Under the pieces are notes generated by a model that was not told where the DNA came from, ran no database searches, and worked only from the letters and a program-made list of their open reading frames with translations. Positions 19,316-36,653 of a DNA stretch of 64,000 nucleotides are shown piece by piece. The position numbers and the translations under genes were made by a program. Each line of letters opens with the position of its first letter. The stretch's first letter is position 1. Source of the DNA: Tabrizicola sp. (GTDB lineage Bacteria; Pseudomonadota; Alphaproteobacteria; Rhodobacterales; Rhodobacteraceae); contig NZ_JALHQD010000006.1 of NCBI RefSeq assembly GCF_022842145.1, positions 1 through 64,000 of the forward strand. Direction: 5' to 3'.

Positions 19316-19960
19316 ATGAACACGCAAAAGACCGAACGCGGCTGGCGTGGAACGCCGGATCTCTGGCTGGAGGCGGCCTATGACCTTCTGGTCGAGGGTG
19401 GGGTCGAAGCGGTCAAGGTGATGCCCCTTGCCGAACGGCTGGGCCTGTCGCGCACCAGCTTTTACTGGCACTTTCCCGACCGCGAGGCGCTGCTGACTGG
19501 CCTGGTCGAGCGTTGGCGGGCGAAGAATACCGGCAATCTCGTCGCGCAGTGCGAAGCGCCGGCTGCGACGATTGCAGAAGCGATGCTGAACCTTGTGGAT
19601 TGCTGGATCGACCCCCAGTTGTTCGACAGCAGGCTGGAATTCGCGATGCGGACCTGGGCTCTGACCGATCGAGCGGTCGAGCAGGCGATGACCGAGGCCG
19701 ATACGGTGCGGATTGCCGCGATTACCGTGCTGTTCCGCCGCTTCGGATATGATGACACTCAAGCCGACACCCGCGCGCGGGCGCTGTATCTCACTCAGGT
19801 GGGCTATATTGCCCTGCGGTCGCAGGAAAGCTTTGACGTCCGGATGGGGCGCATCCCGGCTTATGTGCTGACCTTCTCGGGTGTTGCGCCGACCCAGGAA
19901 GAGGTGGCGGCCTTCCAGGCACGGCACGCCGTCAGGTCAGGCGCATCAGCAGGTCCTTGA
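19316..19960 (+). CDS. TetR-family regulator
   Basis: The 214-residue protein has a TetR-type HTH near residues 12-60 (LWLEAAYDLLVEGGVEAVKV; LAERLGLSRTSFYWHFPDREALL) and a helical ligand-binding part with MRTWALTDRAVEQAM. It probably controls the divergent TMADH-type enzyme through the palindrome between them. Its 3' end overlaps the convergent MarR gene by 29 bp. The inducer is unknown. Confidence 0.9.
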   Translation: MNTQKTERGWRGTPDLWLEAAYDLLVEGGVEAVKVMPLAERLGLSRTSFYWHFPDREALLTGLVERWRAKNTGNLVAQCEAPAATIAEAMLNLVDCWIDPQLFDSRLEFAMRTWALTDRAVEQAMTEADTVRIAAITVLFRRFGYDDTQADTRARALYLTQVGYIALRSQESFDVRMGRIPAYVLTFSGVAPTQEEVAAFQARHAVRSGASAGP

Positions 19961-20351
19961 GAAGCCGGGCCTCGTCTTGCGTCAAAGGCGAAACCGTGTC
20001 CGCCGAAACGCTGAGGGCGGTGGGCACCCGATCGGCGAAAAGCCGTTCGCCTGCTTCGGTCAGGCTGACGGTCAGGCGCCGGCGGTCGGCGGGGTCGGCA
20101 TTGGTCGCGACAAGGCCCAGCTTGGCCAACCGGTCCACGACACCCTTGATGGTCGCCGCGTCCATTGCCGTCTCGCGCCCAAGGTGGTTCTGCGACTGCG
20201 GGCCGATCTCGGCCAGCCGTGCGAGCACGGCGAACTGGGTCGTCGTCACTTCGGGGATTGCGGCGGCGAAGATCGCGAGATGTCGCTGCGTCACCCGGCG
20301 CAGGACATAGCCGATCTGGTCGTCGAGGCGATAGGATTTGGCATCGGTCAT
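19932..20351 (-). CDS. MarR-family regulator of the heterocycle cluster
   Basis: The 139-residue winged-helix protein begins MTDAKSYRLDDQIGYVLRRV. It has the DNA-binding segment TTQFAVLARLAEIGPQSQNHLGRETAM and wing DPADRRRLTVSLTEAG. MarR proteins dissociate from DNA when they bind aromatic or other small ligands. The start at 20351 was chosen because residues upstream of it in the same frame are unconserved. It is divergent from the molybdenum-hydroxylase genes by 97 bp, which makes it the likely regulator of the catabolic cluster. Confidence 0.9.
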   Translation of the reverse strand: MTDAKSYRLDDQIGYVLRRVTQRHLAIFAAAIPEVTTTQFAVLARLAEIGPQSQNHLGRETAMDAATIKGVVDRLAKLGLVATNADPADRRRLTVSLTEAGERLFADRVPTALSVSADTVSPLTQDEARLLKDLLMRLT

Positions 20352-20365
20352 GCTTCGCGATACGA

Positions 20366-20386
20366 CTTGCGGTTGATTGGCGCAAG
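20366..20386. promoter_or_regulatory. Candidate MarR operator
   Basis: The inverted repeat CTTGCG-N9-CGCAAG lies between the MarR start and the first catabolic gene, 5 bp upstream of TTGACA (20391-20396), a likely -35 for the rightward operon. Spacing and size suit a MarR dimer. Confidence 0.45.
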
Positions 20387-20448
20387 GACGTTGACAGAAT
20401 CCCGCCGAGACCACAGTCTGTTGTTACACAAATGAATTCGGGGCTCCC

Positions 20449-21276
20449 GTGCCGGACTATGCCCGACCACAGACGCTGACCGATGCGCTTCGGCTGATGG
20501 GCCGGGGCAGGGTGTCTGTCCTTGCCGGGGGGACCGACCTTTATCCGGGGGCGGGCGCTGCATTGGCAGGGGCGGTCGTCGACCTGACGGGCGTTCCCGA
20601 GCTTTGCGGACTGCAGACGGGTCACGGCCTGCGGATCGGTGCTGCGACCTCCTGGACCGCGATCGCAGAGGCGGACCTGCCGCCAGCCCTGCGCGCCCTG
20701 CAACAGGCCGCGTGGCAGATCGGAGGCCGCCAGATCCAGAACGCGGGGACCATCGGTGGCAATCTCTGCAACGCCTCTCCCGCGGCGGATGGCGTGCCGC
20801 CCCTGATGGCCTTGGGCGCAAAGGTGGAGTTGGCCTCGGCTCAGGGGACGCGGCGGCTGGCGCTGGAGGCGTTCCTGCAAGGTCCGCGGCGCACGGCGCT
20901 AAGCCCCGGCGAGGTCGTGACCGCGATCCTGATCCCGGAAAGCGGACTGCAGGGCCGGTCGGCCTTCGTCAAGCTTGGGGCGCGGTCACATCTGGTGATC
21001 TCGATCGCCATGGTCGCGGCGCGGGTGGTGGTGCAAGCCGGTCGGGTGGTCGATGCGACCGTGGCGGTCGGGGCCTGTTCCCCGGTGGCGGTCCGGCTTC
21101 CTGCGGTCGAGGCGGCGCTGCGGGGTGCCACCGTGGCCGAGGCCTTGGACCGGGTTCAGGCGGCGGACGTGACGGTGGCGCTGGCCCCCATAGACGATGT
21201 GCGGGCAACGGCCGCCTATCGGCTTGCGGCGGCGACCGAGCTTGTGCGTCGGGCTGTGGCCGGGGCCTTGGCATGA
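20449..21276 (+). CDS. FAD-binding subunit of a molybdenum hydroxylase
   Basis: This CoxM/xanthine-dehydrogenase-type FAD subunit passes electrons from the Mo/Fe-S subunit to an acceptor. The 275 residues carry SVLAGGTDLYPGAG (about 22-35) and GGRQIQNAGTIGGNLCNASPAADG (around 100), the two FAD-binding motifs. The start is GTG at 20449; no in-frame ATG lies upstream. The stop overlaps the next ATG (ATGA). It is the first gene of the cluster, divergent from MarR. Confidence 0.92.
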   Translation: MPDYARPQTLTDALRLMGRGRVSVLAGGTDLYPGAGAALAGAVVDLTGVPELCGLQTGHGLRIGAATSWTAIAEADLPPALRALQQAAWQIGGRQIQNAGTIGGNLCNASPAADGVPPLMALGAKVELASAQGTRRLALEAFLQGPRRTALSPGEVVTAILIPESGLQGRSAFVKLGARSHLVISIAMVAARVVVQAGRVVDATVAVGACSPVAVRLPAVEAALRGATVAEALDRVQAADVTVALAPIDDVRATAAYRLAAATELVRRAVAGALA

Positions 21277-23990
21277 TCCGCTTTTCCCTGAATGGCGCGC
21301 AGGTCGAAGTGGAGGCTCCACCGACGGAGCGTTTGTCCGACACCCTGCGCGAGAGACTGGGCAAGGTCGGCACGAAGGTCGGCTGCGACGCTGGCGATTG
21401 CGGGGCCTGCACCGTCCTTCTGGACGGCGCAGCGGTCTGCGCCTGTCTTACGCCCGCCGCGCGGGTCACTGGCCGAGCCGTCACCACCGTCGAGGGTGAG
21501 ACGCCCGAGTTGACCCGCCTGCGCGCCAGTTTCCTGGCTCACGGGGCGGCGCAATGCGGCATCTGCACGCCTGGGATGCTTCTGACCGCCGCCGATCTGC
21601 TGACGCGCAACGACCGGCCCTCGGAGGCCGAGGTTGAGCAGGCGCTTGGCGGCGTCCTTTGCCGCTGCACCGGCTACCGCAGCATCATCGCGGCGGTGGT
21701 GGCGGCGGGGGCAGCGGTGGAGGCCCAGCCGCCGGAGGCACCGGCGGGCGGCATCGGAACCAGTGTCCGCCGTCTGGACGGAGCGGCCAAGGTCGCGGGC
21801 GACAGCTTCGGGGCGGACGAATGGCCGGACGGGGCCTTGATCGTAAAGGCCATCCGTTCGCCCCATCCGCATGCCGAATTCGCGATTGGCGACCTTGCAA
21901 CCTTCCGCGCCCGGCCCGGCGTGGCTGCGGTATTCACCGCATCGGACATCCCCGGCCGCAATGCCTTTTCCGTCATCCCGCCCTATGCCGACCAACCCGC
22001 CATCGCCGCCTCGCCCGCCCGCTTCCGGGGGGAATGCGTGGCCCTGGTGGCGTTTGATCCGGGTGTCGACCCGGACCTTTCCGCGTTTCCGATCAGCTGG
22101 GTGCCGCTGGCCCCACTGGACCGAACCGAAGCGGCTGAGGTTGGCCCTCCGATCCACCTGAGCCGACCCGGTAACCTTCTGGTCGAAGGCAGGGTGCAAA
22201 AGGGGGACGCTGCTGCCGCCCTTACCGCCAGCGCGCATGTTGTCGAAGGCCGCATGACCACCGCCTTCGTCGAACACGCCTACATCGAACCTGAGGCGGG
22301 CGCTGCCTGGATGGACGACGACACCCTCGTCATCCGCGCCTGCACCCAGGCCCCCGGCATGGACCGCGAAGATACCGCCGCGATCCTGGGGCTTCCGCTG
22401 GAGCGGGTTCGGATCATCCCCTCGGCCACCGGCGGGGGCTTCGGATCGAAGCTCGACATCTCCTTGCAGCCGCTGATCGGGCTGGTCACGCTCAAGACCG
22501 GGCGGCCCTGCCGGATGGTCTACAGCCGCCAGGAAAGCATGACCTCCACCACCAAGCGCCACCCGGCCGAGATGTGGGGCCGGATCGGCTGCGACGCGGA
22601 AGGCCGGATCACGGGGGTGGAGTTCGAGGGTCGTTTCAACACCGGTGCCTATTCCAGTTGGGGGCCGACCGTGGCGAACCGGGTGCCGGTCCACGTCTCG
22701 GGGCCGTACCTGACGCCCGCGATCACCGCCAAGGCCCGCGCCATCCATACCCACGGTCCGGTCTCCGGCGCATTCCGCGGCTTTGGCGTGCCGCAAGGCG
22801 CGCTGTGGCAAGAGACGCTCTTCGACCGTCTCGCCGACGCGGCGGGCATCGACCGGCTGGAGTTCCGCTTGCGAAACGCTTTGCGGGACGGTGATGCCTC
22901 GGCAACGGGGCAGGTGCTGCGCGCTGTTGGCATCCACGACTGCCTGATTGCGCTCAAACCCCACTGGGCCCGTGCCCTGGCCGAGGCGGCGGGCAGAAAG
23001 GGCCGGGGCGTCGGCGTCGCCTCCTGCTGGTACGGCTGCGGCAATACCGCGCTGCCGAACCCCTCGACCATCCGCATTGGGCTGTCGCCCGATGGTCTTG
23101 TTGTCCTGCACCAGGGCGCGACCGACATCGGCCAGGGATCGAACACCGTCATTGCCCAGATCGCGGCCGAAGCACTTGGCGTGCCGGTGACCGCTTTCCG
23201 CCTTGTCGGACCGGACACGGCGCTGACCCCGGACGCCGGCAAGACCTCTGCCAGCCGGCAGACCTACGTCACGGGCCGCGCGGCCAAAGCCGCGGCCGAA
23301 GGTCTGCGCACGGAAATCCTGCGCCGTGCCAATGCGGGAGAGGGAGCGACTCTGGCGCTGGACGCCACGACGCTGACCGTCCGGGACCGGGGGACCACGG
23401 CCCGGATCGACCTGGCCACCCTCCTGCCCAACGCCCTGGGTTACGTGCTGAGCGCCGAGGCGACCTACGACCCGCCGACCTCTCCTCTGGACAAGAACGG
23501 GCAGGGCGCGCCCTATGCGGTCTACGGCTACGGCGCGCAGATGGTGGAACTGGAGGTGGACCCGGCGCTTGGCACCATCCGCCTGCTGAAGATCACGGCT
23601 GCGCATGACGTGGGACGCGCGATCAACCCGATGCTGGTCCGGGGTCAGATCGAGGGCGGTATCGCACAAGGCATCGGCATGGCGCTGATGGAGGAATACC
23701 TCCCCGCCCGGACCGAAAACCTGCACGACTACCTGATCCCGACCTTCGGCGATGCGCCGCCCATCGAAAGCCTGCTGATCGAGGTCCCTGATCCCGAAGG
23801 TCCCTTCGGTGCCAAGGGATTGGGCGAGCACGTCCTGATCCCGACCGCCCCCGCCATCCTGAACGCGATCCGCCACGCCATCGGGGCCGAGATCACCCGC
23901 GTCCCCGCGCTTCCGCACCGGGTGCTGGAGGCGACGCAGGATCTTTCTCCTGGGGCTGCTTCCGACGCCGGCAAGGGGCGTTTCCGATGA
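21273..23990 (+). CDS. Fused 2Fe-2S and molybdopterin subunit of a Mo hydroxylase
   Basis: This 905-residue catalytic subunit joins two parts usually encoded separately. The N-terminal part (1-160) has a plant-type 2Fe-2S site (Cys38, 43, 46 and 58, in CDAGDCGACTVL) and a second cluster (CGICTPGM and CRCTGYR). From about residue 175 a xanthine-dehydrogenase-type Mo domain follows, with ATGGGFGSKLDI, SGAFRGFGVPQ and, near the C-terminus, PFGAKGLGEHV, whose Glu is the usual catalytic base. Such enzymes hydroxylate electron-poor ring carbons using water. The substrate is inferred to be an N-heterocycle from the next gene. It is translationally coupled on both sides. Confidence 0.92.
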   Translation: MIRFSLNGAQVEVEAPPTERLSDTLRERLGKVGTKVGCDAGDCGACTVLLDGAAVCACLTPAARVTGRAVTTVEGETPELTRLRASFLAHGAAQCGICTPGMLLTAADLLTRNDRPSEAEVEQALGGVLCRCTGYRSIIAAVVAAGAAVEAQPPEAPAGGIGTSVRRLDGAAKVAGDSFGADEWPDGALIVKAIRSPHPHAEFAIGDLATFRARPGVAAVFTASDIPGRNAFSVIPPYADQPAIAASPARFRGECVALVAFDPGVDPDLSAFPISWVPLAPLDRTEAAEVGPPIHLSRPGNLLVEGRVQKGDAAAALTASAHVVEGRMTTAFVEHAYIEPEAGAAWMDDDTLVIRACTQAPGMDREDTAAILGLPLERVRIIPSATGGGFGSKLDISLQPLIGLVTLKTGRPCRMVYSRQESMTSTTKRHPAEMWGRIGCDAEGRITGVEFEGRFNTGAYSSWGPTVANRVPVHVSGPYLTPAITAKARAIHTHGPVSGAFRGFGVPQGALWQETLFDRLADAAGIDRLEFRLRNALRDGDASATGQVLRAVGIHDCLIALKPHWARALAEAAGRKGRGVGVASCWYGCGNTALPNPSTIRIGLSPDGLVVLHQGATDIGQGSNTVIAQIAAEALGVPVTAFRLVGPDTALTPDAGKTSASRQTYVTGRAAKAAAEGLRTEILRRANAGEGATLALDATTLTVRDRGTTARIDLATLLPNALGYVLSAEATYDPPTSPLDKNGQGAPYAVYGYGAQMVELEVDPALGTIRLLKITAAHDVGRAINPMLVRGQIEGGIAQGIGMALMEEYLPARTENLHDYLIPTFGDAPPIESLLIEVPDPEGPFGAKGLGEHVLIPTAPAILNAIRHAIGAEITRVPALPHRVLEATQDLSPGAASDAGKGRFR

Positions 23991-25417
23991 CCGACGCGCC
24001 CGAAAAGATCCGCTGCGATGCCTGCCCGGTGATGTGCTACATCGCGCCGGGGCAGACCGGGGCCTGTGATCGCTATGCCAACGAGGCAGGCCGGATCGTG
24101 CGGACCGACCCCGTGGTGATGCTGTCGCATACGGTCGAAGCCGGAGGCCGCGTCGTGCCCTTTGCGGCGCGCGACTGGGACGGAAGCCCGGTTCCGGCGG
24201 ACGCTTTCGTCACCGGAATCGGCACCGGGACGACCTACCCCGACTACAAGCCCGCGCCCTTCATCGTCTCGTCCCTGGTCGAGGGCGCCGACATGGTCAC
24301 CGTCGTGACCGAGGCGATCTTCTCCTATTGCGGGGTCAAGGTGAAGATCGACACCGACCGGTTCCTTGGCCCCGAGGGCGCTGTAGTGCGGGTCGAGGGC
24401 GAACCGGTTGGCCATGTCACGACCGCCGAATACGGCAGCCAGATGCTGAGCCTTGGCGGGGTGCATCACCTGACCGGCGGCAGCAAGGCCGAGGGCCGGG
24501 TGACCTGCGCGGCGATGCTGGCGCTTTGCAACGCCGAGGCCGTGGAAATGACCGTCGACGGGGGGTCCACCGTCGTGGTGCAGGCAGGGGAAGCCCCGGT
24601 CGTGGACGGGACCCGAGAGCGTCGGATGCGGGTCGGCTGCGGCTCTGCCACCATCGGGATGTTTGCGGTCCAGTGGCAGGGGCTGGTGGACGAGGTGGTG
24701 GTGGTCGACGACCATATCACCGGCGTCGTCAGCGAGCATCAGGCAGGCAAGGTGATCGGCTGGCCGCCGTCGGGTATCCGGATCAAGGGCCACCGCTCGA
24801 CGCCGGGGCGCTATTTCAAGGTCTCCGAACCGGGGCAAGGCTGGGGCGGAACCCGCCTGACCGACCCGCTGGAGATATTGGGCGAGTGGGACCCCAAGAA
24901 GGGCGCGCGGCCGGGCCTGCGGCTCTTGATGGTTTCCACCACGGGCGAGCAGTACGCCTATTACGTCCTGGACCAGAACCTGCGGCCCGTCGCGCAGGAG
25001 TTGCCGCAGAACCTGAGGAAGACCGTCGAACTGATTGACGAGAATTGCGAACCGTCGCTCTGCACCGTGCTGTTCGTCGGCGGAGCGGGCGGGTCGCTGC
25101 GCGCCGGGGTGGCGAAGAACCCGGTGGGACTTACGCGGTCGGTCCAGGCCGGCGTCACCCGGCTGACCAGCGGCGGGGCCCAGACCTGGGTCTGGCCCGG
25201 CGGCGGGATCACCTTCATGGTCGACGTCACGCGTCTGCCCAAGGGCGCCTTCGGCTATGTGCCCACCCCCGCACTGGTCGCACCTCTGGAATTCACGCTT
25301 CCACGTATGGAATATCTTGCGATGGGCGGGCATGAGGAGAGCATCCGCACCCTCGACCAGTCGCTCGCCGAGGGTGGTGAGTATCCGACTTCGGCTAGGG
25401 TGCAGCCATGGCCGTAA
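23987..25417 (+). CDS. 6-hydroxynicotinate reductase-like iron-sulfur protein
   Basis: The 476-residue protein starts MTDAPEKIRCDACPVMCYIA; Cys10, 13, 17 and 27 form a C-x2-C-x3-C-x9-C site suitable for a 4Fe-4S cluster. Homologues are annotated as 6-hydroxynicotinate reductase after the Eubacterium barkeri enzyme, which reduces the pyridone ring to 6-oxo-tetrahydronicotinate. Other conserved-looking parts are GIGTGTTYPDYKPAPF and GGAGGSLRAGVAKNPVGLTR. The gene is coupled to the Mo hydroxylase by ATGA and overlaps the UPF0280 gene by 10 bp. Ring reduction is a fair inference; nicotinate as substrate is not proven. Confidence 0.78.
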   Translation: MTDAPEKIRCDACPVMCYIAPGQTGACDRYANEAGRIVRTDPVVMLSHTVEAGGRVVPFAARDWDGSPVPADAFVTGIGTGTTYPDYKPAPFIVSSLVEGADMVTVVTEAIFSYCGVKVKIDTDRFLGPEGAVVRVEGEPVGHVTTAEYGSQMLSLGGVHHLTGGSKAEGRVTCAAMLALCNAEAVEMTVDGGSTVVVQAGEAPVVDGTRERRMRVGCGSATIGMFAVQWQGLVDEVVVVDDHITGVVSEHQAGKVIGWPPSGIRIKGHRSTPGRYFKVSEPGQGWGGTRLTDPLEILGEWDPKKGARPGLRLLMVSTTGEQYAYYVLDQNLRPVAQELPQNLRKTVELIDENCEPSLCTVLFVGGAGGSLRAGVAKNPVGLTRSVQAGVTRLTSGGAQTWVWPGGGITFMVDVTRLPKGAFGYVPTPALVAPLEFTLPRMEYLAMGGHEESIRTLDQSLAEGGEYPTSARVQPWP

Positions 25418-26262
25418 GAGCAACCCGCGTCCAAGGTGCCGTCGCTGCTCTGCTGCCGGGGGGGCGGCTTCATCTTCAGCATGGCCCCATCGACATCATC
25501 GCCGAGGCTTTTGGGGAACCCCCCGCAGTTCGCGCCGCCTATGCCCGCGCGGCCAGCCGCTTTTCGACCGTGCTTGAAGACCTGGTTGCCGAGTTGCCCG
25601 ACCTGCGCGCCGAAGACGCCCCGGTCTCTGGACGGATCGCGCGCCGCATGGCCCTGGCGGTCGCGCCCTTCCGCCCGGTTTTCATCACTCCGATGGCCGC
25701 GGTCGCGGGGGCGGTGGCCGACGAGATCGTCATGGCTCTGACCGGGCCGGGGATACGCCGCGCCTATGCCAATAACGGCGGCGACATCGCGTTGTGGCTG
25801 GCTTCCGGCGAAAGGCTGACCTGCGCTCTGGCGGCGACGGGTGGGCTGGACCAGGTGACGGTCGGGGCCAGCGACCCGGTCCGTGGAATTGCCACCTCCG
25901 GCTGGCGAGGGCGCAGCTTCTCGCTTGGGATCGCGGATGCGGTGACGGTGGTGGCGCGGACGGCGGCCGAGGCGGACGCGGCGGCGACGATGGTGGCCAA
26001 TGCGGTGAACCTGGACCATCCCGGCATCCTCCGGCGTGCAGCGCGTGAGGTGCAGTGCGACAGCGATCTTGGCGACCGCTTGGTCACGGCCGCGGTGCCG
26101 GTTTTGACGCCAGCAGAACGGGCCGCGGCCCTGAGGGCCGGCCTGCAGGCTGCGGAAGACTTCCGGGCGCGCGGATTGATTGAAGGGGCGGCGCTTTTCC
26201 TGCAGGGTGAGTGCGGGATGACGGGCGCGCTGGCGCTTGAGAAAGGGAACGCAAGTGGCTGA
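25408..26262 (+). CDS. UPF0280 family protein (ApbE-like fold)
   Basis: The 284-residue protein matches UPF0280, a family related in fold to ApbE flavin transferases. Segments include FRPVFITPMAAVAGAVADEI, YANNGGDIALWLASGE and GIATSGWRGRSFSLGIADAV, matching the GGDI/D and A-T-S-G-style motifs of ApbE-like proteins. No biochemical role is established. It overlaps both neighbours (10 and 8 bp), so it is made with the reductase and the DUF1185 protein. It might insert or bind a flavin for the reductase; that is inference. Confidence 0.8.
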   Translation: MAVRATRVQGAVAALLPGGRLHLQHGPIDIIAEAFGEPPAVRAAYARAASRFSTVLEDLVAELPDLRAEDAPVSGRIARRMALAVAPFRPVFITPMAAVAGAVADEIVMALTGPGIRRAYANNGGDIALWLASGERLTCALAATGGLDQVTVGASDPVRGIATSGWRGRSFSLGIADAVTVVARTAAEADAAATMVANAVNLDHPGILRRAAREVQCDSDLGDRLVTAAVPVLTPAERAAALRAGLQAAEDFRARGLIEGAALFLQGECGMTGALALEKGNASG

Positions 26263-26836
26263 CTTTGCAGTCCGGAAGATCGTCATGCAGCTGGAGGAGA
26301 TCCGGCACGAGGGCGGGCCCCTGGTGACCCCCCCGCCAGTGCGGGGCGCGATCTATGCGATCTGTGCCAACCCCTTTGCCGGACGCTACGTTCCGGATCT
26401 CCAGCCCGCGATGGAGGACCTCAAGCCGTTGGCGCTGGACCTGACCGACCGGCTTGTAGCCCTTCTTGGCGGGCGCGAAGGAATCGACGCCTATGGCAAG
26501 GGGGCCATCGTGGGCGAAGGCGGCGAAAGCGAACATGGCGCGCTCTGGCATGTCGCGGGCGGCTATGGGATGCGCGAACGGCTGGGCGAATGCCGCGCCA
26601 TCGTTCCCAGCGTGATGAAGGTGGGGGGCATGGGCAGCCCGCTGGACCTGCCGCTTGGACATCTGAATGCGGCCTATGTCCGTTCACGCTTCGATGCCAT
26701 CACGCTGGCCTGCCCGGACGGGCCGCGGGCGAACGAGGTCCTTTTCGCGCTTGGCATGGCGCGCGGGGGCCGGGTCCACAGCCGGATGGGCGGGCTGGAG
26801 ATCGACCAGGTCAAGGGGGAGGACGGTCTGAGGTGA
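26255..26836 (+). CDS. DUF1185 'amino acid synthesis' family protein
   Basis: The 193-residue protein (start VADFAVRKIVMQLEEIRHEG) belongs to the AA_synth/DUF1185 family, a small alpha/beta protein of unknown reaction despite its name. Characteristic parts are GAIYAICANPFAGRYVPDL, AYGKGAIVGEGGESEHGALWH and VMKVGGMGSPLDLPLGH. The GTG at 26255 follows AAAGGGA and overlaps the upstream stop; a TTG six codons earlier is less likely. Position between a ring reductase and an amide-opening enzyme pair suggests a step on a reduced or opened ring. Confidence 0.8.
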   Translation: MADFAVRKIVMQLEEIRHEGGPLVTPPPVRGAIYAICANPFAGRYVPDLQPAMEDLKPLALDLTDRLVALLGGREGIDAYGKGAIVGEGGESEHGALWHVAGGYGMRERLGECRAIVPSVMKVGGMGSPLDLPLGHLNAAYVRSRFDAITLACPDGPRANEVLFALGMARGGRVHSRMGGLEIDQVKGEDGLR

Positions 26837-28233: not shown

Positions 28234-28247
28234 CCAGAACCGGATGA
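28220..28247 (+). repeat. 14-bp tandem duplication at a stop codon
   Basis: CCAGAACCGGATGA occurs twice in direct succession (28220-28233 and 28234-28247). The first copy contains the stop of the membrane-protein gene. This is a slippage-type duplication with no predicted product change. Confidence 0.95.
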
Positions 28248-28329
28248 AACGACTGGACAATCCCGGGGACGTGGCGCCCCAATGACAACCAATGGCCCGA
28301 CCAGAGGCCGCAACAGTGGAGAGACGGAC

Positions 28330-29604
28330 ATGACGAACGGATTGCTTCATCCTACCCGCCGCGGTCTTCTGATGGCCGGGGGCGCAGGGCTTCTGACCGC
28401 CGCACTGCCGGGCTATGTCGCGGCGCAGGCAGCGCCCGTCAAGATCGGCTTCCAACTGCATCGGACCGGCATCGGTGCCGCCTATGGCCGCTGGTACGAG
28501 CGGACCGCCCAGGCCGCGCTGAAAGCGATCAACGATGCGGGTGGCATCGCTGGTCGCCCGGTGGAGATCCTGTTCGAGGACGATGCCACCGACCCCAAGC
28601 GCGGATCGGAAGTGGTGGACAAGCTTACCCAGTCCGATGGCTGCGATCTGGTGATGGGGACGCTGTTCAGCCATGTTGTCATGGGGTCCGCGCCCCGCGC
28701 CGGTGAGCTGAAGGTGCCCTACCTCGTCTGTTCCGAGGGCTACCACGTCGCCTCCGGCGCGTTGAACCGCTGGACGCTGCAGCCCGGCATCACCGACGTG
28801 CGCGCGCAGATCTCGACGATGGCACCCTGGGTGGCGGCCAACCTTGGCAAGAAGGTGACGATGGTCTTCCCGGACTACGCCTTCGGCCACGACCACCGCG
28901 ACTTCTTCACCGCCGCGATCCAGGCCCAGGGCGGCGAGGTCGTCGCCCAGATCGCGGTGCCGCCGACGGAAACCAGCTTCACCCGCTACTTCCCGCAGAT
29001 CCCGGCGGAAACCGAGGTGCTTTATCACGTCATGGTCGGCCCGGCCGTCCTGACCTTCGTCAAGGAACTGGGCGAGTTTTACGGGACCGGCGCAAAGCCA
29101 GCGCTCTTCGGCTTCATCGACAGCCTGGAGGCCGTGGACACCGCGACGCCGGGCCTGGAGTTTCTGGAAGGCAGTCACTTCTGGGAGGCCCATCCGCGCG
29201 TGAAGGCCGCCGACGCCGGTGAGCACGAGGGCCACTACCGCGCCGCCGTGGGGGTGGACGACAACGGCGCTTCGGTCAGCGATGCGGCGGATGTGTCGAC
29301 CTACAGCCACATGTTCTCGACCTGGGAGACGCTCTACTTCATCAAGCAGGCGATGGAGGCCTCGGGCTACACCGGCCCGGCTGACCGGCAGAAACTGGTC
29401 GAGGCGATGGAGGCGATCACCGATCTGCCCTACGGCATCGAACGGCCGCAGGGTGCCAAGCGCTTCAACGGGAAGACCCACCAGGTCTTCGGGGCGCAGC
29501 ACATCAGCCAGGTGCAAGGCGGCAAGCTGGTCAAGGTCCATACCACGACCATTGACGAGGGGATGTACGAGGACGCGGTCGACTACACGACGATGTACTT
29601 CTGA
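28330..29604 (+). CDS. Branched-chain/amide-type ABC substrate-binding protein (Tat)
   Basis: The 424-residue periplasmic binding protein of the LivK/AmiC/UrtA class has a twin-arginine signal (HPTRRGLLMAGGAGLLTAAL, then VAAQA). The mature part begins APVKIGFQLHRTGIGAAYG and contains INDAGGIAGRPVEILFEDD, typical of the family. The ATG at 28330 follows GGAGAG. It is followed by matching permeases and ATPases, so it probably delivers the heterocycle or a related amide. A Tat signal would suit cofactor-free folding before export. Confidence 0.9.
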   Translation: MTNGLLHPTRRGLLMAGGAGLLTAALPGYVAAQAAPVKIGFQLHRTGIGAAYGRWYERTAQAALKAINDAGGIAGRPVEILFEDDATDPKRGSEVVDKLTQSDGCDLVMGTLFSHVVMGSAPRAGELKVPYLVCSEGYHVASGALNRWTLQPGITDVRAQISTMAPWVAANLGKKVTMVFPDYAFGHDHRDFFTAAIQAQGGEVVAQIAVPPTETSFTRYFPQIPAETEVLYHVMVGPAVLTFVKELGEFYGTGAKPALFGFIDSLEAVDTATPGLEFLEGSHFWEAHPRVKAADAGEHEGHYRAAVGVDDNGASVSDAADVSTYSHMFSTWETLYFIKQAMEASGYTGPADRQKLVEAMEAITDLPYGIERPQGAKRFNGKTHQVFGAQHISQVQGGKLVKVHTTTIDEGMYEDAVDYTTMYF

Positions 29605-29626
29605 CGATCGCCTTCTGACAATCCCG

Positions 29627-29685
29627 GGGTGGGCGCATCGCCCACCCTACTTTGCCGCCAGCGCAGGGTGGGCAGTCCGCCCACC
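29627..29685. repeat. Two GGGTGGGC palindromic repeat units
   Basis: GGGTGGGCG-CAT-CGCCCACCC (29627-29647) is a perfect hairpin. A second unit, GGTGGGC-AGTCC-GCCCACC, spans 29667-29685. They lie between the binding-protein and permease genes. Related half-sites occur near 62786-62829. This looks like a REP-type intergenic element, which may trim or stabilise mRNA so that the binding protein is made in excess. Confidence 0.75.
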
Positions 29686-29705
29686 TTCCCCATCCACGGA
29701 CAAGC

Positions 29706-30584
29706 ATGGCCTTCGGACCCTTCCTGCTCCTTGCCCTGATGGAGGGCCTTGTAACTGCCGCCGTGCTGGCGCTGGCAGCCGCCGGGCTAAGCCTGGTCTT
29801 CGGCGTCATGCGGGTCGTCAACGTGGCGCATGGCGAGTTCTACATGCTGGGAGCAGTCCTTGCCTGGGCCGTGACCACCATGATCCCCGGCCCGCCTGCG
29901 CTGGCCTTCCTCGCCGCCGTCATCATCGCCCCGCTCCTGGTGGCCGCGCTCGCCGCTGCCGCAGATGGGTTGATCCTGAAGCGGCTGAACTACGACCCCG
30001 AGGCGACCATCGTGGCCACCATCGGCCTGCTCTACATCCTCCAGCAGGCTGCGCTCTCGCTTTACGGACCCAATGCCAACCCTGTCACCGCCCCCTTCGA
30101 GTGGCGCATCCAGCTGCCCTGGTTCGGGTATTCGGGCTACAAGCTGTTCGTCGTCTTCGCGGCCGGAATGGTGCTTCTGGCGCTATGGCTTTTCATGAAC
30201 CGCACTAAGGCGGGCCTCGTGATGCGCGCCACGCAAGTGGACCGCACCACGGCGCAGGCTTTTGGGATCAACGTCGACCGTGTCTACATGGGCACCTTCG
30301 CGCTTGGCGCAGGGCTTGCCGCACTGGCGGGCGTCTTGGTCGTCCCGATCCAGCAGGCGCAATACCTGATGGGTCATGACCCGCTGCTGCTTTCGTTCAT
30401 CGTGGTGATCATCGGTGGCCTTGGCTCTTTGCGCGGCACGTTGATCGCCGCCCTTGTGATCGGCCTTTCCGACGGCGTGATCTCGATGTTCTTCACGCCG
30501 ACGCTTGCCAAGATCCTTGCCACGCTTCTGGTCGCGATGGTCCTCGTCTTCCGCCCTCAGGGCCTGTTCGGAGCGAAGGCGTGA
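29706..30584 (+). CDS. Branched-chain-type ABC permease (LivH family)
   Basis: The 292-residue inner-membrane permease (MAFGPFLLLALMEGLVTAAV) has about eight hydrophobic segments and the LivH signatures AAAGLSLVFGVMRVVNVAHGEFYMLG and IGGLGSLRGTLIAAL. It forms the importer channel with the LivM-type protein. The start at 29706 excludes repeat-derived residues from an in-frame upstream extension. Its stop overlaps the next GTG start. Confidence 0.93.
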   Translation: MAFGPFLLLALMEGLVTAAVLALAAAGLSLVFGVMRVVNVAHGEFYMLGAVLAWAVTTMIPGPPALAFLAAVIIAPLLVAALAAAADGLILKRLNYDPEATIVATIGLLYILQQAALSLYGPNANPVTAPFEWRIQLPWFGYSGYKLFVVFAAGMVLLALWLFMNRTKAGLVMRATQVDRTTAQAFGINVDRVYMGTFALGAGLAALAGVLVVPIQQAQYLMGHDPLLLSFIVVIIGGLGSLRGTLIAALVIGLSDGVISMFFTPTLAKILATLLVAMVLVFRPQGLFGAKA

Positions 30585-31528
30585 CGGGGAACAGCAGCAA
30601 GGTCTGGATGCTGCACCTGGCACTGCTGGCGGTGTTGTTCTCCGCGCAGTACTGGCTGTCGCCCTACAACGTGACAAACCTGTCCCGGATCATGGTGCTG
30701 GCGGTCTTCGCGATGGGCTACAACCTTGCCTTTGGCTACACCGGCCTCCTAAGCCTTGGTCATGCCCTCCTTCTCGGCGCCGGGATGTATGCCGCGGGCC
30801 TGCCGGCCCAGCTTTGGGGCTGGAGCGCCGGTCCCGCCTTCATCGCGGGCATCGCCGGAGGCGGCCTTGTTGCCGCAGCGCTCGGCCTTCTGGCGCTGCG
30901 CACGGCGGGTGTCAGCTTCATGATCGTCACCCTGATGTTCGCCCAGGCCGGATATCTGACACTGCTCTACTTCGCCCCGGTCACCGGCGGGGATGACGGC
31001 TTTGCCGTGGTCGCCACCAGCCGCACCCTCATGGGCTTCGACCTTTCCACCGACACGCCCCGGTTCCTTGCCGCGCTGATGATCTTCGCCGTGGGTCTTC
31101 TTGCCAGCCTTGCCCTGGTTCGTTCGCCCTTCGGCAGAACGATGGTCGCCATGCGCGAGAACGAAGAGCGGTCCCGGATGCTTGGTTACAACCCCTTCAC
31201 CGTGAAGCTTGCTGCGCTTACCATTTCTGGCCTGTACGCCGGGGCCGCGGGGGCCGCCTACGCGATCCTCTTCGGCTATGTCGGTGCCAGCTTCGCCACG
31301 ATCCAGTATTCCATCCTGCCCATGCTCTACGTGCTTCTGGGCGGGGCGGGGACAACCCTCGGACCCTTCCTGGGCGCGCTTTTGATGTTCGCGCTGATCG
31401 AGGCCGCGACGGGCATCACCACCGCGCACCAGTTCATCGTCGGGGCGGCGCTGGTCGTTCTTGTCCTTTTCGCGCCGAAGGGCATCCTGGGCACGATCCG
31501 CGAAAGGTGGGTCAGATGGCTGCCCTGA
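30581..31528 (+). CDS. Branched-chain-type ABC permease (LivM family)
   Basis: The 315-residue second permease subunit has LivM-type features: GYNLAFGYTGLLSLGHALLLGAG, a polar MRENEERSRMLGYN loop and GGAGTTLGPFLGALL. The GTG start overlaps the LivH-type stop by 4 bp. Together with the other four proteins it completes a five-component uptake system; the substrate is inferred from cluster context only. Confidence 0.92.
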   Translation: MTGNSSKVWMLHLALLAVLFSAQYWLSPYNVTNLSRIMVLAVFAMGYNLAFGYTGLLSLGHALLLGAGMYAAGLPAQLWGWSAGPAFIAGIAGGGLVAAALGLLALRTAGVSFMIVTLMFAQAGYLTLLYFAPVTGGDDGFAVVATSRTLMGFDLSTDTPRFLAALMIFAVGLLASLALVRSPFGRTMVAMRENEERSRMLGYNPFTVKLAALTISGLYAGAAGAAYAILFGYVGASFATIQYSILPMLYVLLGGAGTTLGPFLGALLMFALIEAATGITTAHQFIVGAALVVLVLFAPKGILGTIRERWVRWLP

Positions 31529-32220
31529 TCGAAAGCCGGAACCTTGCGCTGCACTTCGGTGGCCTCAAGGCTGTGGACGGGGTCGACTTCACCCTGCAGC
31601 CCGGGGAAATCCACGGTCTCATCGGCCCGAACGGCGCTGGCAAGACGACCTTCGTCAGCCTTCTTTCCGGTCGCCGTCTGCCGCAGTCGGGAACCATCCA
31701 TCTGGCAGGAGAGGACATCACCCGACTTCCCGCCCACCTCCGGGTCCGCAGGGGCATTGCCTATACCTTCCAGATCACCTCGATCTTCCCGCGCCTTTCG
31801 GTCTTCGACAACGTGGCATTGGCCGTCCAGTCGCAGGGCGTATCGGACCTGTCCGGGAAGACCCTCGCCGCCCTGGCGCGCGTGGGGCTTGAGGGGCTGG
31901 AGGAGCAGGAGGCACAGACCCTGTCTTACGGCCACCAGCGGCTTCTGGAACTGGCGATGGGGCTGGCCCTGAACCCGAAGCTTCTGATCCTGGACGAGCC
32001 GACCCAGGGCCTGGCCGCCAGCGAGATCCAAGGCTTCAAGGACCTGGTCCGCAGCCTGGTCCCCGCGACCACCGTCCTTCTGATCGAACACAACATGGAG
32101 GTGGTGATGGACCTCGCCACCCGGATCACGGTGCTGACCTTTGGCCGCGTTCTCGCCTCGGGGACCCCTGCCGAGATTCGGGCCAACCCGTCTGTCCAGG
32201 AGGCCTATCTTGGCGCTTGA
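31516..32220 (+). CDS. Branched-chain-type ABC ATPase (LivG family)
   Basis: The 234-residue ATP-binding subunit has Walker A GPNGAGKTTF, the ABC signature here SYGHQ, and Walker B LLILDEPTQGL; it ends NPSVQEAYLGA as LivG proteins do. The ATG at 31516 follows GAAAGG at 8 nt and overlaps LivM by 13 bp; a GTG three codons earlier is a weaker option. It energises import from the cytoplasmic face. Confidence 0.94.
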   Translation: MAALIESRNLALHFGGLKAVDGVDFTLQPGEIHGLIGPNGAGKTTFVSLLSGRRLPQSGTIHLAGEDITRLPAHLRVRRGIAYTFQITSIFPRLSVFDNVALAVQSQGVSDLSGKTLAALARVGLEGLEEQEAQTLSYGHQRLLELAMGLALNPKLLILDEPTQGLAASEIQGFKDLVRSLVPATTVLLIEHNMEVVMDLATRITVLTFGRVLASGTPAEIRANPSVQEAYLGA

Positions 32221-32908
32221 CGTTCAGGGTCTGACCGCAGGCTACGGGCCGGTCACCGTACTTCGCGGGGTCGATTTCCGGGCCGAGCCGGGGCGGATCA
32301 CCTGCCTGATGGGTCGGAACGGCGTGGGAAAATCCACGTTCCTCAAAGCCTTGATGGGACTTCTTCCAGCGACGGCCGGGACCATCTCCCTTAACGGCCA
32401 GCCGCTGCACGGCCTGCCCGCACATCAGGTGCCAAGGTGCGGCTTGGCGTTCGTTCCGCAGGGCCGCCGCCTGTTCGGCCCACTTACCGTGGCCGAGAAC
32501 CTTGCCGTCGGTGGCCTGGTCCGTCGCAACGACCCCGCGCGGCTGGACGAGGTGCTGACTCTGTTTCCCCGGCTCCGCGACCGCCTTGGCCAGGTCGCTG
32601 GCACCCTGTCGGGTGGTGAACAGCAGATGCTCGCCATTGCCCGCGCGCTGTGCCTTGAGCCCAAGGTCCTGCTTCTGGATGAGCCGACCGAGGGGCTGCA
32701 ACCTTCGATCATCGCCCTCATTCAGGACGCGATTGTCACGCTGAAGGGCCAGGGCGTGGCGGTCGTACTGGTGGAGCAGCGCGTGGATTCAGTGCTGAAA
32801 CTGGCAGATCGGGTGGCGTTCATGGTCGCGGGCCGGATCGCCGAGACGCGGGATGCGGCGGGACTTGTGGCCGGCGATCCAGCGTTCCGGACCTATGTGG
32901 GGGTGTGA
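32210..32908 (+). CDS. Branched-chain-type ABC ATPase (LivF family)
   Basis: The 232-residue second ATPase has Walker A GRNGVGKSTF, signature LSGGEQQMLAIARAL and Walker B VLLLDEPTEGL. I chose the TTG at 32210 because CAGGAGG stands 6 nt upstream and the protein then begins LALDVQGLTAGYG, as LivF proteins do. It overlaps LivG by 11 bp. No in-frame ATG is near. Confidence 0.92.
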   Translation: MALDVQGLTAGYGPVTVLRGVDFRAEPGRITCLMGRNGVGKSTFLKALMGLLPATAGTISLNGQPLHGLPAHQVPRCGLAFVPQGRRLFGPLTVAENLAVGGLVRRNDPARLDEVLTLFPRLRDRLGQVAGTLSGGEQQMLAIARALCLEPKVLLLDEPTEGLQPSIIALIQDAIVTLKGQGVAVVLVEQRVDSVLKLADRVAFMVAGRIAETRDAAGLVAGDPAFRTYVGV

Positions 32909-32940
32909 ATGACGCGTAAAGCTGACCGCCGGGGGCGCGC

Positions 32941-34962
32941 ATGACGGGCCTTGTCGCAGGTGTCGACGTGGGCGGCACCTTCACGGACCTTGCGATCTTC
33001 GATCCGTCGACCGGGGAGGTCCGGCTGGCCAAGGTCCCGACCACGTTGCCGAACCAGTCGGGCGGCGTGCTGGCGGCCTTCGATGCGGCGGGGACCGATG
33101 ATCTCTCGCAGGTCGACCTGATCGTCCACGGCACGACCACCACGACCAACGCGGTGCTGGAGCGTCAGCTTGCGAACACCGGTCTCATCACCACGGCCGG
33201 ATTCCGCGACGTGCTGGAGCTTGGCCGCCGCACCCGTCCGCAGGCCTACGGGATGCACGGCCACTTCACGCCGGTGATCCCGCGCGACCTGCGGCTGGAA
33301 GTCCCCGAGCGGATGGATGCCCGTGGCCGCGTCCTGACGCCGCTGGACGAGGCCGCCCTGCGCACTGCCGTCACGCAATTGCGGGATCAGGGCTGCGAGG
33401 CGCTGGTGATCCATTTTCTCCACGCCTATGCCAACCCCGCGCACGAGCTACGGTCGGCCGAGATTGCGCGTCAGATATGGGCCAATGATTACATCACCTT
33501 GGGCCATGCTCTGCTGTCCGAATCCCGCGAGTACGAACGTGGCGTGACCGCGGCCGTCAACGCCTCGGTCCAGCCGCTGCTGGAACGCTACGTGGCGCGC
33601 CTGGCTGAAGAGTTGGCCGCGAAGGGCTACCGGCGCGACCTTCTGGTGATGAACGGCAATGGCGGGATGGTGGCCGCAAAGGACGTGGCGAAGGAAGCGG
33701 TCAAGACCGTGATGTCCGGTCCCGCCTCGGGCGTGATGGCGGCGGTTGCGACGGGCCGCAGGGCGGGGATGGCGAACCTCCTGACCTATGACATGGGCGG
33801 CACCAGCACCGATGTGGCGATGATCCGGAATGGCATTGCGCCCGTCTCGAACGAGATCGAGGTCGAATATGCCATGCCGATCCATGTGCCGATGGTGGAT
33901 GTGCGCACCGTCGGGGCCGGGGGCGGTTCCATCGCCAGGATCGATGCGGGCGGCATGCTGCGGGTGGGGCCGGAAAGCGCGGGATCGACGCCAGGCCCGG
34001 TCTGCTATGGCCGTGGGGGGACTCGGGTCACGATTTCGGACGCGAACCTGATCCTCGGTCGCTTGCCCGCCGACCGCTTCGGCCAGGCGGTCGAGGCGGC
34101 GCATCGCGCGATGCGGGACCAGATTGCCGCGCCGCTGGGGCTGTCGGTGGAAGAGGCCGCGGAAGCGGTGGTCCGCATCGCCAACACCCACATGGCCGGG
34201 GCGATCCGGATGGTTTCGATCTCGCTCGGGGCCGATCCGCGCGACTTTGCCCTTTTTGCCTTCGGAGGGGCGGGGCCGCTGCATGCCGTGGCACTGGCCA
34301 GGGAGTTGAACGTTCCCAAGGTGTTGATCCCCGCCCGGCCCGGTATCACCAACGCCCTCGGCTGCGTGGTGGCCGACCTGCGCCACGACTTCGTCCGCAC
34401 CCTGAACCGCCCGCTTGACGTGGTGGACATGGGCGACGTCCACGGGGTCCTTGCCACGCAGGAGGCCGAGGGGCGGCGTCTGATCGGGCTGGAGAAGATC
34501 GCGCTGACCACGGTGCGCGCCGAGTATTCCGCAGACATGCAGTTCGTGGGCCAGACGCATCTTCTGCGGGTGCGGCTGCCCTCAGGAAACCCGTCGCGCG
34601 ACCAATTGCAGCGCCTGTTTGAGGCGGCCTATCACACCCGCTTCCGCGTGGACCTGCCGACGATCCGGGCAAACCTGGTGAACCTGAACGTGTCGGTCAT
34701 CGGAGAGCGTCCGGCACTGGACCTGTCGCGGCTGATCGATCCGGCGGGGCGGCGGGAAAGGGCCCGGCCAGCCAGCACCCGGAAGGTCTGGTTCGGTGGC
34801 TGGCATGACACGCCCATTTACTGGCGGGACCACCTCCCGTTGAAGATCACCCTGCAAGGCCCGGCGATCATTGAGCAAATGGATACGACCATCGTGATGG
34901 ATCCCGGATCGACGGCAACACAGGACGCGGATGGCAACCTGATCGTCGAGGTAGGCACATGA
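32941..34962 (+). CDS. hyuA: Hydantoinase/oxoprolinase subunit A (HyuA type)
   Basis: The 673-residue ATP-binding subunit belongs to the hydantoinase/5-oxoprolinase family, which opens lactam or cyclic amide rings using ATP. Motifs are AGVDVGGTFTDLAIFD at the start, the phosphate loop HGTTTTTNAVLER, SGPASGVMAA and MGGTSTDVAMI. It is coupled to subunit B by a 4-bp overlap. In this cluster it is the best candidate for opening the lactam produced by ring hydroxylation and reduction. The substrate could be a piperidone, pyrrolidone or hydantoin; sequence does not tell. Confidence 0.9.
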   Translation: MTGLVAGVDVGGTFTDLAIFDPSTGEVRLAKVPTTLPNQSGGVLAAFDAAGTDDLSQVDLIVHGTTTTTNAVLERQLANTGLITTAGFRDVLELGRRTRPQAYGMHGHFTPVIPRDLRLEVPERMDARGRVLTPLDEAALRTAVTQLRDQGCEALVIHFLHAYANPAHELRSAEIARQIWANDYITLGHALLSESREYERGVTAAVNASVQPLLERYVARLAEELAAKGYRRDLLVMNGNGGMVAAKDVAKEAVKTVMSGPASGVMAAVATGRRAGMANLLTYDMGGTSTDVAMIRNGIAPVSNEIEVEYAMPIHVPMVDVRTVGAGGGSIARIDAGGMLRVGPESAGSTPGPVCYGRGGTRVTISDANLILGRLPADRFGQAVEAAHRAMRDQIAAPLGLSVEEAAEAVVRIANTHMAGAIRMVSISLGADPRDFALFAFGGAGPLHAVALARELNVPKVLIPARPGITNALGCVVADLRHDFVRTLNRPLDVVDMGDVHGVLATQEAEGRRLIGLEKIALTTVRAEYSADMQFVGQTHLLRVRLPSGNPSRDQLQRLFEAAYHTRFRVDLPTIRANLVNLNVSVIGERPALDLSRLIDPAGRRERARPASTRKVWFGGWHDTPIYWRDHLPLKITLQGPAIIEQMDTTIVMDPGSTATQDADGNLIVEVGT

Positions 34963-36653
34963 TCGATCCCGTCACGCTTGCCGTCATCCAGGCAGGGCTT
35001 CAGCAGGTCTGTGACGAGATGGACCTGACGTTTTCGCGGGCAGCCTTCTCTCCGGTGATTGCGGAGGCGGACGACCGGTCCGACGGGATCTATTCGGCAA
35101 GCGACGGAAGCCTTATTGCCCAAGGTTCCAAAGGGTTGCCGGTCTTTGTTGGAGTGATGCAGTTCTCGACCGCGACGATTTTGGAGCGCATCCGTTCCGG
35201 CATCACGGCGGCACCGCAGCCGGGTGACATCTACATCGTCAACGACCCCTATCTGGGTGGCACGCATCTGATGGACGTGCGCTTTGCCATGCCGGTCTGG
35301 CGGGCGGGGGAAATCTACTGCTGGCTGTCGAACACCGGCCACTGGCCCGACACCGGCGGGGCGGTTCCGGGCGGGTTCAGCGCCAGCGCGATCAGTGCCG
35401 AGCAGGAAGGACTGCGCCTGCCCCCGGTGAAGCTGTTCAAACAGGGAATGCTGGACCAGGAAATCTACCAGATCATCTGTTCCAACATCCGGGTGTCCGA
35501 GCAGCGGATCGGCGATGTGAAGGCTCAGGCCTCGGCATTGCTGGTCGGGGCAGAGCGGCTGGGGGCGCTGCTGGACCGGTATGGCGACGCGACGGTGACT
35601 GACGCGATTGCCGAGATGCGCAGGCTGGCGGCCAAGCAGATGCGGGCGATGATCGGGCTGATCCCGGAGGGTGTCTATCGGGCCACCGCCATCGTGGACA
35701 GCGACGGGGTGGTGAACGAACCCCTGACGATCGCGCTGGCGGTGACGAAGGCGGGCGACCAGCTGACCTTCGATTTCGCGGGGTCGTCGAAACCCTGCAT
35801 GGGGCCGATGAACTCGGTCCGGGCGACGACGCTGTCGGCAGTCTACCTGGCGATGCGGCATATCTTTCCGGATGTGCCGATCAGCGCGGGCGCCTTCGAG
35901 CCGCTGGAGGTTGTTGGTATTGAAGGGACTTTTCTGGATGCGCACTATCCGCGCCCGGTTTCCGGCTGTGCGGCCGAGGTCAGCCAGCGCATCGCCGAAG
36001 CGGTCTTTGCGGCGCTTGTGCAAGCCGTCCCCGGCTCTGTCACCGCGGCCCCGGCGGGAACCTCGGGCAACTTCGGGCTGGGTGGGCATGACCCGGAAAA
36101 GGGCCGGGATTATGTGATGTACCAGATCTCGGGCGGGGGCTATGGCGGTTTTGCGGGAGGCGACGGGATCGCCAACGGCTGTTCGACCATCGGCATTTCC
36201 AAGGCCCCGCCGGTCGAGATCATGGAGCAGACCTACCCCGTCCTGTACCGCCGCTATGCGCTGCACGAAGGGTCGGGCGGGGCGGGGCAGCACCGGGGCG
36301 GCTTTGGCGTGGACTACGAGATCGAACTGCTGCGCGGTGAGGCCCGGGCGTCGTTTGTCATGGACCACGGGCGGGTCGGGCCGCAGGGGGCCCTGGGGGG
36401 CCAGGACGGTGCGGTGAACCGGGTGGAGGTGATCCGGGATGGCGTGGTCATGGTGCCGGAGCATCTGTCGAAGGCGCAGGACATCGCCTTGAAACCGGGC
36501 GACCGGGTGCGGGTCAGGACGCCGGGGGGCGGGGGCTACGGCCCACCGGAAAAGCGTGATCCGGCGCTGGTGGCCGAGGATGTCCGGCTGGGGCGCTACA
36601 CGGCGGAGGAGGCTGCGCGGCACTGGCCGGGATGGTCCGACGGAGGCGTCTGA
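34959..36653 (+). CDS. hyuB: Hydantoinase/oxoprolinase subunit B (HyuB type)
   Basis: The 564-residue partner starts MIDPVTLAVIQAGLQQVCDE and has typical HyuB stretches: EADDRSDGIYSASDG, GDIYIVNDPYLGGTHLMDV, VSGCAAEVSQRIAEAV and a C-terminal RVRTPGGGGYGPPEKRD. It completes the ATP-dependent cyclic-amide hydrolase with the preceding subunit. It is the last gene of the cluster. Downstream, 215 bp hold only a small CTTGG/CCAAG hairpin (36654-36667) before the convergent efflux operon. Confidence 0.91.
   Translation: MIDPVTLAVIQAGLQQVCDEMDLTFSRAAFSPVIAEADDRSDGIYSASDGSLIAQGSKGLPVFVGVMQFSTATILERIRSGITAAPQPGDIYIVNDPYLGGTHLMDVRFAMPVWRAGEIYCWLSNTGHWPDTGGAVPGGFSASAISAEQEGLRLPPVKLFKQGMLDQEIYQIICSNIRVSEQRIGDVKAQASALLVGAERLGALLDRYGDATVTDAIAEMRRLAAKQMRAMIGLIPEGVYRATAIVDSDGVVNEPLTIALAVTKAGDQLTFDFAGSSKPCMGPMNSVRATTLSAVYLAMRHIFPDVPISAGAFEPLEVVGIEGTFLDAHYPRPVSGCAAEVSQRIAEAVFAALVQAVPGSVTAAPAGTSGNFGLGGHDPEKGRDYVMYQISGGGYGGFAGGDGIANGCSTIGISKAPPVEIMEQTYPVLYRRYALHEGSGGAGQHRGGFGVDYEIELLRGEARASFVMDHGRVGPQGALGGQDGAVNRVEVIRDGVVMVPEHLSKAQDIALKPGDRVRVRTPGGGGYGPPEKRDPALVAEDVRLGRYTAEEAARHWPGWSDGGV

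Follow-up and report, generated by a model that had tools for sequence, protein, structure and literature searches.

A nicotinate-type gene cluster of Tabrizicola sp. in which HyuAB probably stands in for enamidase

The nicotinate fermentation of Eubacterium barkeri proceeds by nicotinate dehydrogenase, 6-hydroxynicotinate reductase (HNR), and enamidase. The route through 1,4,5,6-tetrahydro-6-oxonicotinate (THON) is described for E. barkeri, whose enamidase is bifunctional, and for Azorhizobium caulinodans in the accessible part of PMC9304392, and an HNR cluster is presented as the nicotinate cluster of A. caulinodans, Bradyrhizobium, and Rhodopseudomonas in the available text of PMC3511419, which also gives 42% identity to the E. 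barkeri HNR for the HNR of a Bradyrhizobiaceae strain, a figure that does not refer to the protein studied here. We analyzed a 64,000-nucleotide stretch of DNA from Tabrizicola sp. (contig NZ_JALHQD010000006.1, positions 1 to 64,000; hereafter the window), in which a cluster at 19932..36653 shares with the E. barkeri pathway the predicted succession of Mo hydroxylase, HNR-type reduction, and hydrolysis that opens a partly saturated lactam, but has no enamidase and carries the gene pair HyuAB instead. A first-pass annotation had remarked that enamidase was missing; we found none in the cluster and none genome-wide at E ≤ 1e-60, and because of this genome-wide absence the cluster is a variant, not a standard member, of the reductive (THON) nicotinate pathway. 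Judged from sequence and gene neighborhood, it probably encodes an aerobic reductive nicotinate pathway, from 6-hydroxynicotinate to THON, in which HyuAB would replace enamidase.

HyuAB and enamidase were distributed almost exclusively of each other. HyuAB was found in annotated plasmid records of Fuscovulum, Neorhizobium, and Pleomorphomonas, whereas those of Sulfitobacter pontiacus and a Comamonadaceae strain held an amidohydrolase without HyuAB. The Sulfitobacter amidohydrolase, which matched the ENAMIDASE of PDB 2vun (E 1e-106 over 383 residues, nearly the whole length), served as the enamidase query, and the window protein served as the HyuB query. HNR was present in 32 of 398 Pseudomonadota genomes, an even draw and the sole unselected sample. 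A HyuB ortholog (at least 67% identity, with the next paralogs at no more than 46%) was identified in 17 genomes and an enamidase ortholog (61-85%, with the next matches at no more than 44%) also in 17, all of them HNR-positive: 15 had HyuB only, 15 had enamidase only, 2 (G123 and G194) had both, and none had neither. No HNR-negative genome (0 of 366) carried either gene at ortholog identity. Within the 32 HNR genomes, the exclusion gave a Fisher p of 2.4e-7, a value that ignores kinship. Stops flagged in 7 search matches fell outside the aligned parts.

We also compared the surroundings of HNR in a scan of bacterial and archaeal genomes, using the 80 top-ranked HNR relatives out of 590 or more. 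Together with plasmid and further genome loci, these made 117 loci, or 114 after removal of the duplicates L120, L129, and L131, comprising 41 HyuAB-type loci, 14 enamidase-type loci, and 59 with neither gene within reach, some of which ended at contig ends. None of the 117 loci held both HyuAB and enamidase. In 33 named genomes picked for having neither gene near HNR (among them L068, which is G194 of the draw), HyuB was located elsewhere in 31, at 75-79% identity in 30 and at 58% in 1 (L058); 6 of these 31 also had an enamidase at 60-63%, and the remaining 2 (L011 and L074) had enamidase. Exactly 1 of the 2 genes was found in each of 11 further genomes, picked among HyuAB-type loci, and in each of 6 plasmid records. 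In L159 and L160, where HyuAB is remote, its neighbor is a ferredoxin-NADP reductase-like gene. Enamidase with both forms of DUF1185 (clades a and b, described below) constitutes a module that can sit away from HNR, as in L158 (G123) and in L155 (Rhodobacter amnigenus).

The window and 99 loci supplied the 100 labelled rows of the HNR tree, with loci too short to type omitted and genomes with both genes labelled HyuAB; L150, with HNR in 2 pieces, was dropped, leaving 99 rows. This tree required 7 changes of the HyuAB/enamidase label, of which starred branches forced 6 or more, and the exchange of enamidase for HyuAB appears to have taken place on several occasions during evolution. At L150 (G016:C1:2969823-2971252), HNR appeared as 2 overlapping matches, and the gene may be frameshifted in the assembly.

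The HNR of the window (23987..25417, + strand) is predicted by homology to be a 6-hydroxynicotinate reductase: 26 plasmid records matched it at 60-83% identity, and in 17 the gene bears that annotation. Seven cysteines were invariant across 49 HNR rows; the protein had no Pfam or NCBIfam match in family scans, no PDB entry convincingly related to it by sequence, and no Foldseek match at E ≤ 0.001. The UPF0280 gene follows it directly (25408..26262, +), and UPF0280 was present in exactly the same 32 of the 398 genomes as HNR. The gene order is far beyond chance, because UPF0280 was called in 112 of the 114 deduplicated loci, each time on the HNR strand, and because many of the 80 top-ranked HNR loci (out of 590 or more) show the same order, Mo hydroxylase-HNR-UPF0280-DUF1185. 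The 2 loci without a UPF0280 call were L026, on a short contig, and L058 (Acidisphaera sp. L21); within the 21 kb locus of L058, a clade-b DUF1185 gene directly follows HNR, and neither UPF0280 nor a Mo hydroxylase was called. The first-pass annotation had named beforehand, as grounds for abandoning it, a failure of UPF0280 and DUF1185 to accompany the Mo hydroxylase and HyuAB in other genomes, and this co-occurrence was found in the sister loci.

The 2 halves of the putative lactam-opening enzyme are the ATP-binding HyuA (32941..34962, +; PF05378, PF01968, PF19278) and the hydrolase HyuB (34959..36653, +; PF02538, 514.5 bits). Their domains are adjacent and above the Pfam cut-offs, which places the pair in the HyuAB hydantoinase/oxoprolinase family; HyuB matched the hydantoinase PDB 6yra (E 1.1e-74), and HyuA contains DVGGTFTD and DMGGTSTD, which we take to be family motifs.

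The DUF1185 protein (26237..26836, +) scored 209.6 bits against PF06684 (cut-off 27) and matched PDB 3byq (E 1.9e-47). Residues E97, H100, and R183 were invariant in 24 homologs and correspond in the alignment to Glu90, His93, and Arg176 of the solved BB2672 pocket, with a 1-residue offset in chain numbering. The DUF1185 fold resembles RidA/AtzD-type proteins. Its probable substrate is the product expected from ring opening, an enamine or formyl acid. A tree of 24 rows separated 2 clades, of which clade a (14 rows, support 99/100) includes the window protein. Counted by BLAST type over the typed loci, leaving out the 59 untyped, clade a was identified in 39 and clade b in 2 of the 41 HyuAB loci; for the 14 enamidase loci the figures were 8 and 14, respectively. 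In R. amnigenus (L011/L155), enamidase and both DUF1185 forms were located on a separate contig, with no DUF1185 match in the HNR operon. A second PF06684 copy in the genome of the window (G000:C3:263000-282500, L083) lies in a cluster with a flavin reductase, an LLM monooxygenase, an aldehyde dehydrogenase, and an enol-lactonase-like hydrolase, with an MttB-like methyltransferase nearby, a gene set that we take to resemble the trigonelline (tgn) cluster.

The hydroxylase consists of an FAD subunit (20449..21276, +; PF00941, PF03450) and a fused [2Fe-2S] and molybdopterin subunit (21273..23990, +; PF00111, PF01799, PF01315, PF02738, PF20256), and its Pfam domains make the Mo hydroxylase family certain; it is putatively a nicotinate hydroxylase. 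Of the 114 loci, 16 had NicB-type genes near HNR; among the others, 92 carried a Mo hydroxylase of the window type. NicA/NicB were annotated in the Neorhizobium locus and NicR in that of Pleomorphomonas. A nicotinamidase-like gene was identified in 43 of the 114 loci, and 1 representative protein scored 224.3 bits against an NCBIfam cut-off of 174. Because of the nicotinamidase-like or NicAB-type genes in sister loci and the literature on the THON route, nicotinate would be the simplest substrate. It had been suggested that the ring-opening chemistry or the substrate may be new. The ring-opening enzyme does look new, and our literature search, made mostly without subscription papers and thus a weak negative, found no earlier report of HyuAB in nicotinate breakdown. 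A new substrate is unneeded, since the HNR-UPF0280-DUF1185 block adjoins enamidase in other genomes, an HNR cluster of this kind has already been published as a nicotinate cluster (PMC3511419, as far as its text is available), and nicotinamidase-like or NicAB-type genes occur in part of the sister loci.

The route we infer would begin with import of the substrate by the ABC transporter and hydroxylation of nicotinate to 6-hydroxynicotinate by the Mo enzyme, after which HNR would reduce 6-hydroxynicotinate to THON. HyuAB, as an ATP-dependent lactamase of the hydantoinase/oxoprolinase family, would open the THON lactam in place of enamidase, yielding 2-(aminomethylene)glutarate or its hydrolysis product 2-formylglutarate, and DUF1185 would probably process this enamine or formyl acid. 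UPF0280, as a protein of the ApbE superfamily, probably loads or attaches the flavin of HNR, and MarR is probably the regulator. The transport-hydroxylate-reduce-open route of the first-pass annotation appears right as a prediction from the genes.

Open reading frames and family scans confirmed the gene set and order as first described. All cluster genes except MarR lie on the + strand, without internal stops. The 6 + strand genes from the FAD subunit of the Mo hydroxylase through a polytopic membrane protein (26833..28233) overlap by 4-26 bases, and gaps of 96 bases (28233/28330), 101 bases (29604/29706), and 32 bases (32908/32941) follow. The membrane protein had 11 hydrophobic segments in a simple scan and no Pfam or NCBIfam match in family scans, and its homologs were found in part of the sister loci. 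It remains unassigned, as it had been together with UPF0280 and DUF1185; the latter 2 can now be partly assigned, by an ApbE-like fold and by a solved fold with an invariant pocket, respectively. The importer comprises a periplasmic substrate-binding protein (28330..29604, +; PF13458), a LivH-like permease (29706..30584, +; annotated as an ABC permease in the syntenic locus L114), a LivM-like permease (30581..31528, +), a LivG-like ATPase (31507..32220, +), and a LivF-like ATPase (32210..32908, +), the last 4 being open reading frames, with LivM, LivG, and LivF likewise named by synteny with L114; the start of LivF was judged by eye from the sequence, the mechanical start being 32141. The divergent MarR-family gene (19932..20414, - strand; PF12802/PF01047 above cut-off) has homologs in many sister loci.

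The cluster is adjoined by an OYE/FadH-type flavoenzyme gene (17170-19194, -), closest in NCBIfam to mycofactocin FadH/OYE 2 but below the cut-off, and by a TetR regulator gene (19316-19960, +) that overlaps the MarR gene at the 3' ends; the OYE/FadH-type and TetR genes are retained in several close Rhodobacter-like loci. Beyond the cluster, on the opposite strand, lies an RND-type efflux pump gene (36869-40192, -; named by eye). Close relatives of it, at 67-68%, accompany HNR in 3 of the 80 top-ranked loci, which were taken from 590 or more HNR relatives.

Several observations weigh against a HyuAB-dependent nicotinate route, and we set them beside the alternatives on which they bear. The co-occurrence could mostly reflect shared ancestry of a few lineages, with HyuAB a passenger of alphaproteobacterial clusters. 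Much of the weight in the 398-genome draw lies with the groups f10/g34 and f8/g30, and a kinship-aware test on 74 whole genomes, taking only rows with both genes measured (57 with HyuB, 24 with enamidase, 7 with both, none with neither), yielded just 5 independent pairs and a weak median p of 0.0625; adding the 6 plasmid records gave 6 pairs and a median p of 0.031 (range 0.031-0.063). Within pairs, enamidase changed opposite to HyuB or stayed unchanged, and never moved in the same direction. The complementarity is therefore strong as a pattern, and its kinship-corrected significance is modest. Passenger status is nevertheless very improbable, given that HyuAB is kept in HNR genomes even when distant from HNR (about 99 kb in G071), is absent at ortholog identity from the 366 HNR-less genomes of the draw, and changes label repeatedly on the HNR tree. 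The 7 of 74 genomes that carry both genes were labelled HyuAB in that tree, orthologs were defined by the identity gap and not by a HyuB tree, and in L058 UPF0280 was not near HNR and the genomic HyuB reached only 58%. A different ring, such as a substituted pyridine or a related N-heterocycle, could be processed by the same design, in which case HyuAB would open some lactam besides THON; the Mo hydroxylase of the window type is not of the NicAB kind, 71 of the 114 loci (some short) had no nicotinamidase-like gene, and one side of the tree gathered 73 of the 79 HyuAB-type HNR rows together with just 2 enamidase rows. We regard this as unlikely, as HyuAB and enamidase alternate on close-kin HNRs (L115/L116 with HyuAB versus L119 with enamidase, and L056 versus L074), so that a single substrate class is simpler, and nicotinamidase-like and NicAB-type genes occur in some HyuAB-type loci.

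The ring might instead be opened by DUF1185, with HyuAB handling a later or side product. DUF1185 has a chorismate-mutase-like fold that resembles ring-opening amidases, it is a neighbor of HNR in the majority of typed loci, and its Glu/His/Arg pocket is invariant; however, since all 14 enamidase loci have a DUF1185 too, the loss of enamidase is explained by HyuAB and not by DUF1185, and we consider this arrangement quite improbable. Weighing against the main reading is that a DUF1185 protein of coumarin breakdown had no stimulating effect in its authors' test, according to the accessible portion of PMC7913881. More evenly placed, if still somewhat short of an even chance, is the alternative that UPF0280 is an FAD-binding chaperone or a pyrophosphatase with another target and not a flavin transferase. 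ApbE uses an Asp-Ser-His triad and the target motif D-x-x-[ST]-G-A-[ST], as stated in the available part of PMC12052999, and this motif was found in none of 49 HNRs. In UPF0280, S164 was invariant in 51 rows and D190 in 45 (both mapped by motif and spacing, not on a model), no invariant His lay between them in the alignment rows, and, judged by eye from this spacing against ApbE sequences, the loop with the catalytic His is apparently missing. The window protein scored 359.5 bits against NF003322 (cut-off 290). On the other side, fold comparison revealed the ApbE fold, and the HNR of E. barkeri carries a covalent flavin. No publication on UPF0280 surfaced in the literature search, under the same weak coverage as above. 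The activities of HyuAB, UPF0280, and DUF1185 are predicted from genomic context and homology. A bolder version of that route, in which HyuAB and DUF1185 form a split, ATP-driven 'enamidase' repeatedly exchanged with enamidase, whose site is Fe-Zn, and UPF0280 is a cytoplasmic flavin transferase acting at a non-canonical site of HNR (a protein of as yet unseen fold), is possible but doubtful.

The operon is ordinary-looking, yet it represents a known pathway in a recurring variant whose central enzyme is apparently replaced. A HyuAB group annotated merely as 'hydantoinase' or similar gains a testable function, and the pattern suggests that 1 ring-opening chemistry in vitamin B3 breakdown has been repeatedly replaced by an unrelated and probably energy-consuming one. 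Roles can be offered for UPF0280 and DUF1185, whose relatives 2o34, 3byq, and 2qtp are structures without function. Enamidase is a poor marker of the route, being absent from 15 of the 32 HNR genomes of the draw.

Among described systems, the nicotinate cluster of Azorhizobium, Bradyrhizobium, and Rhodopseudomonas is said in the available text of PMC3511419 to cover the first 3 steps, and therefore to include enamidase; in the window the third step would be taken over by HyuAB. The TgnF/DUF1185 protein that the accessible portion of PMC7913881 names for trigonelline degradation shares PF06684 with the window copy but belongs to a different pathway, and the tgn-like copy in the genome is 35% identical to that of the window. 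DVU1097/UPF0280 and the ApbE flavin transferases share a fold, and ATSG and ADxxxT motifs were recognized by eye in the window protein; in contrast to ApbE, the latter has no PF02424 match (nor any Pfam family at E ≤ 0.001), apparently no His-bearing loop, and an expected cytoplasmic location. Both Pfam architectures of the ATP-dependent HyuA/HyuB hydrolases N-methylhydantoinase, 5-oxoprolinase, and caprolactamase are shared by the window pair, although its scores lie below the curated NCBIfam cut-offs of caprolactamase (HyuA 488.6 bits against 1000 for CapA, and HyuB 306.6 bits against 1000 for CapB), and it differs from the known HyuA/HyuB hydrolases in that its usual genetic partner is HNR.

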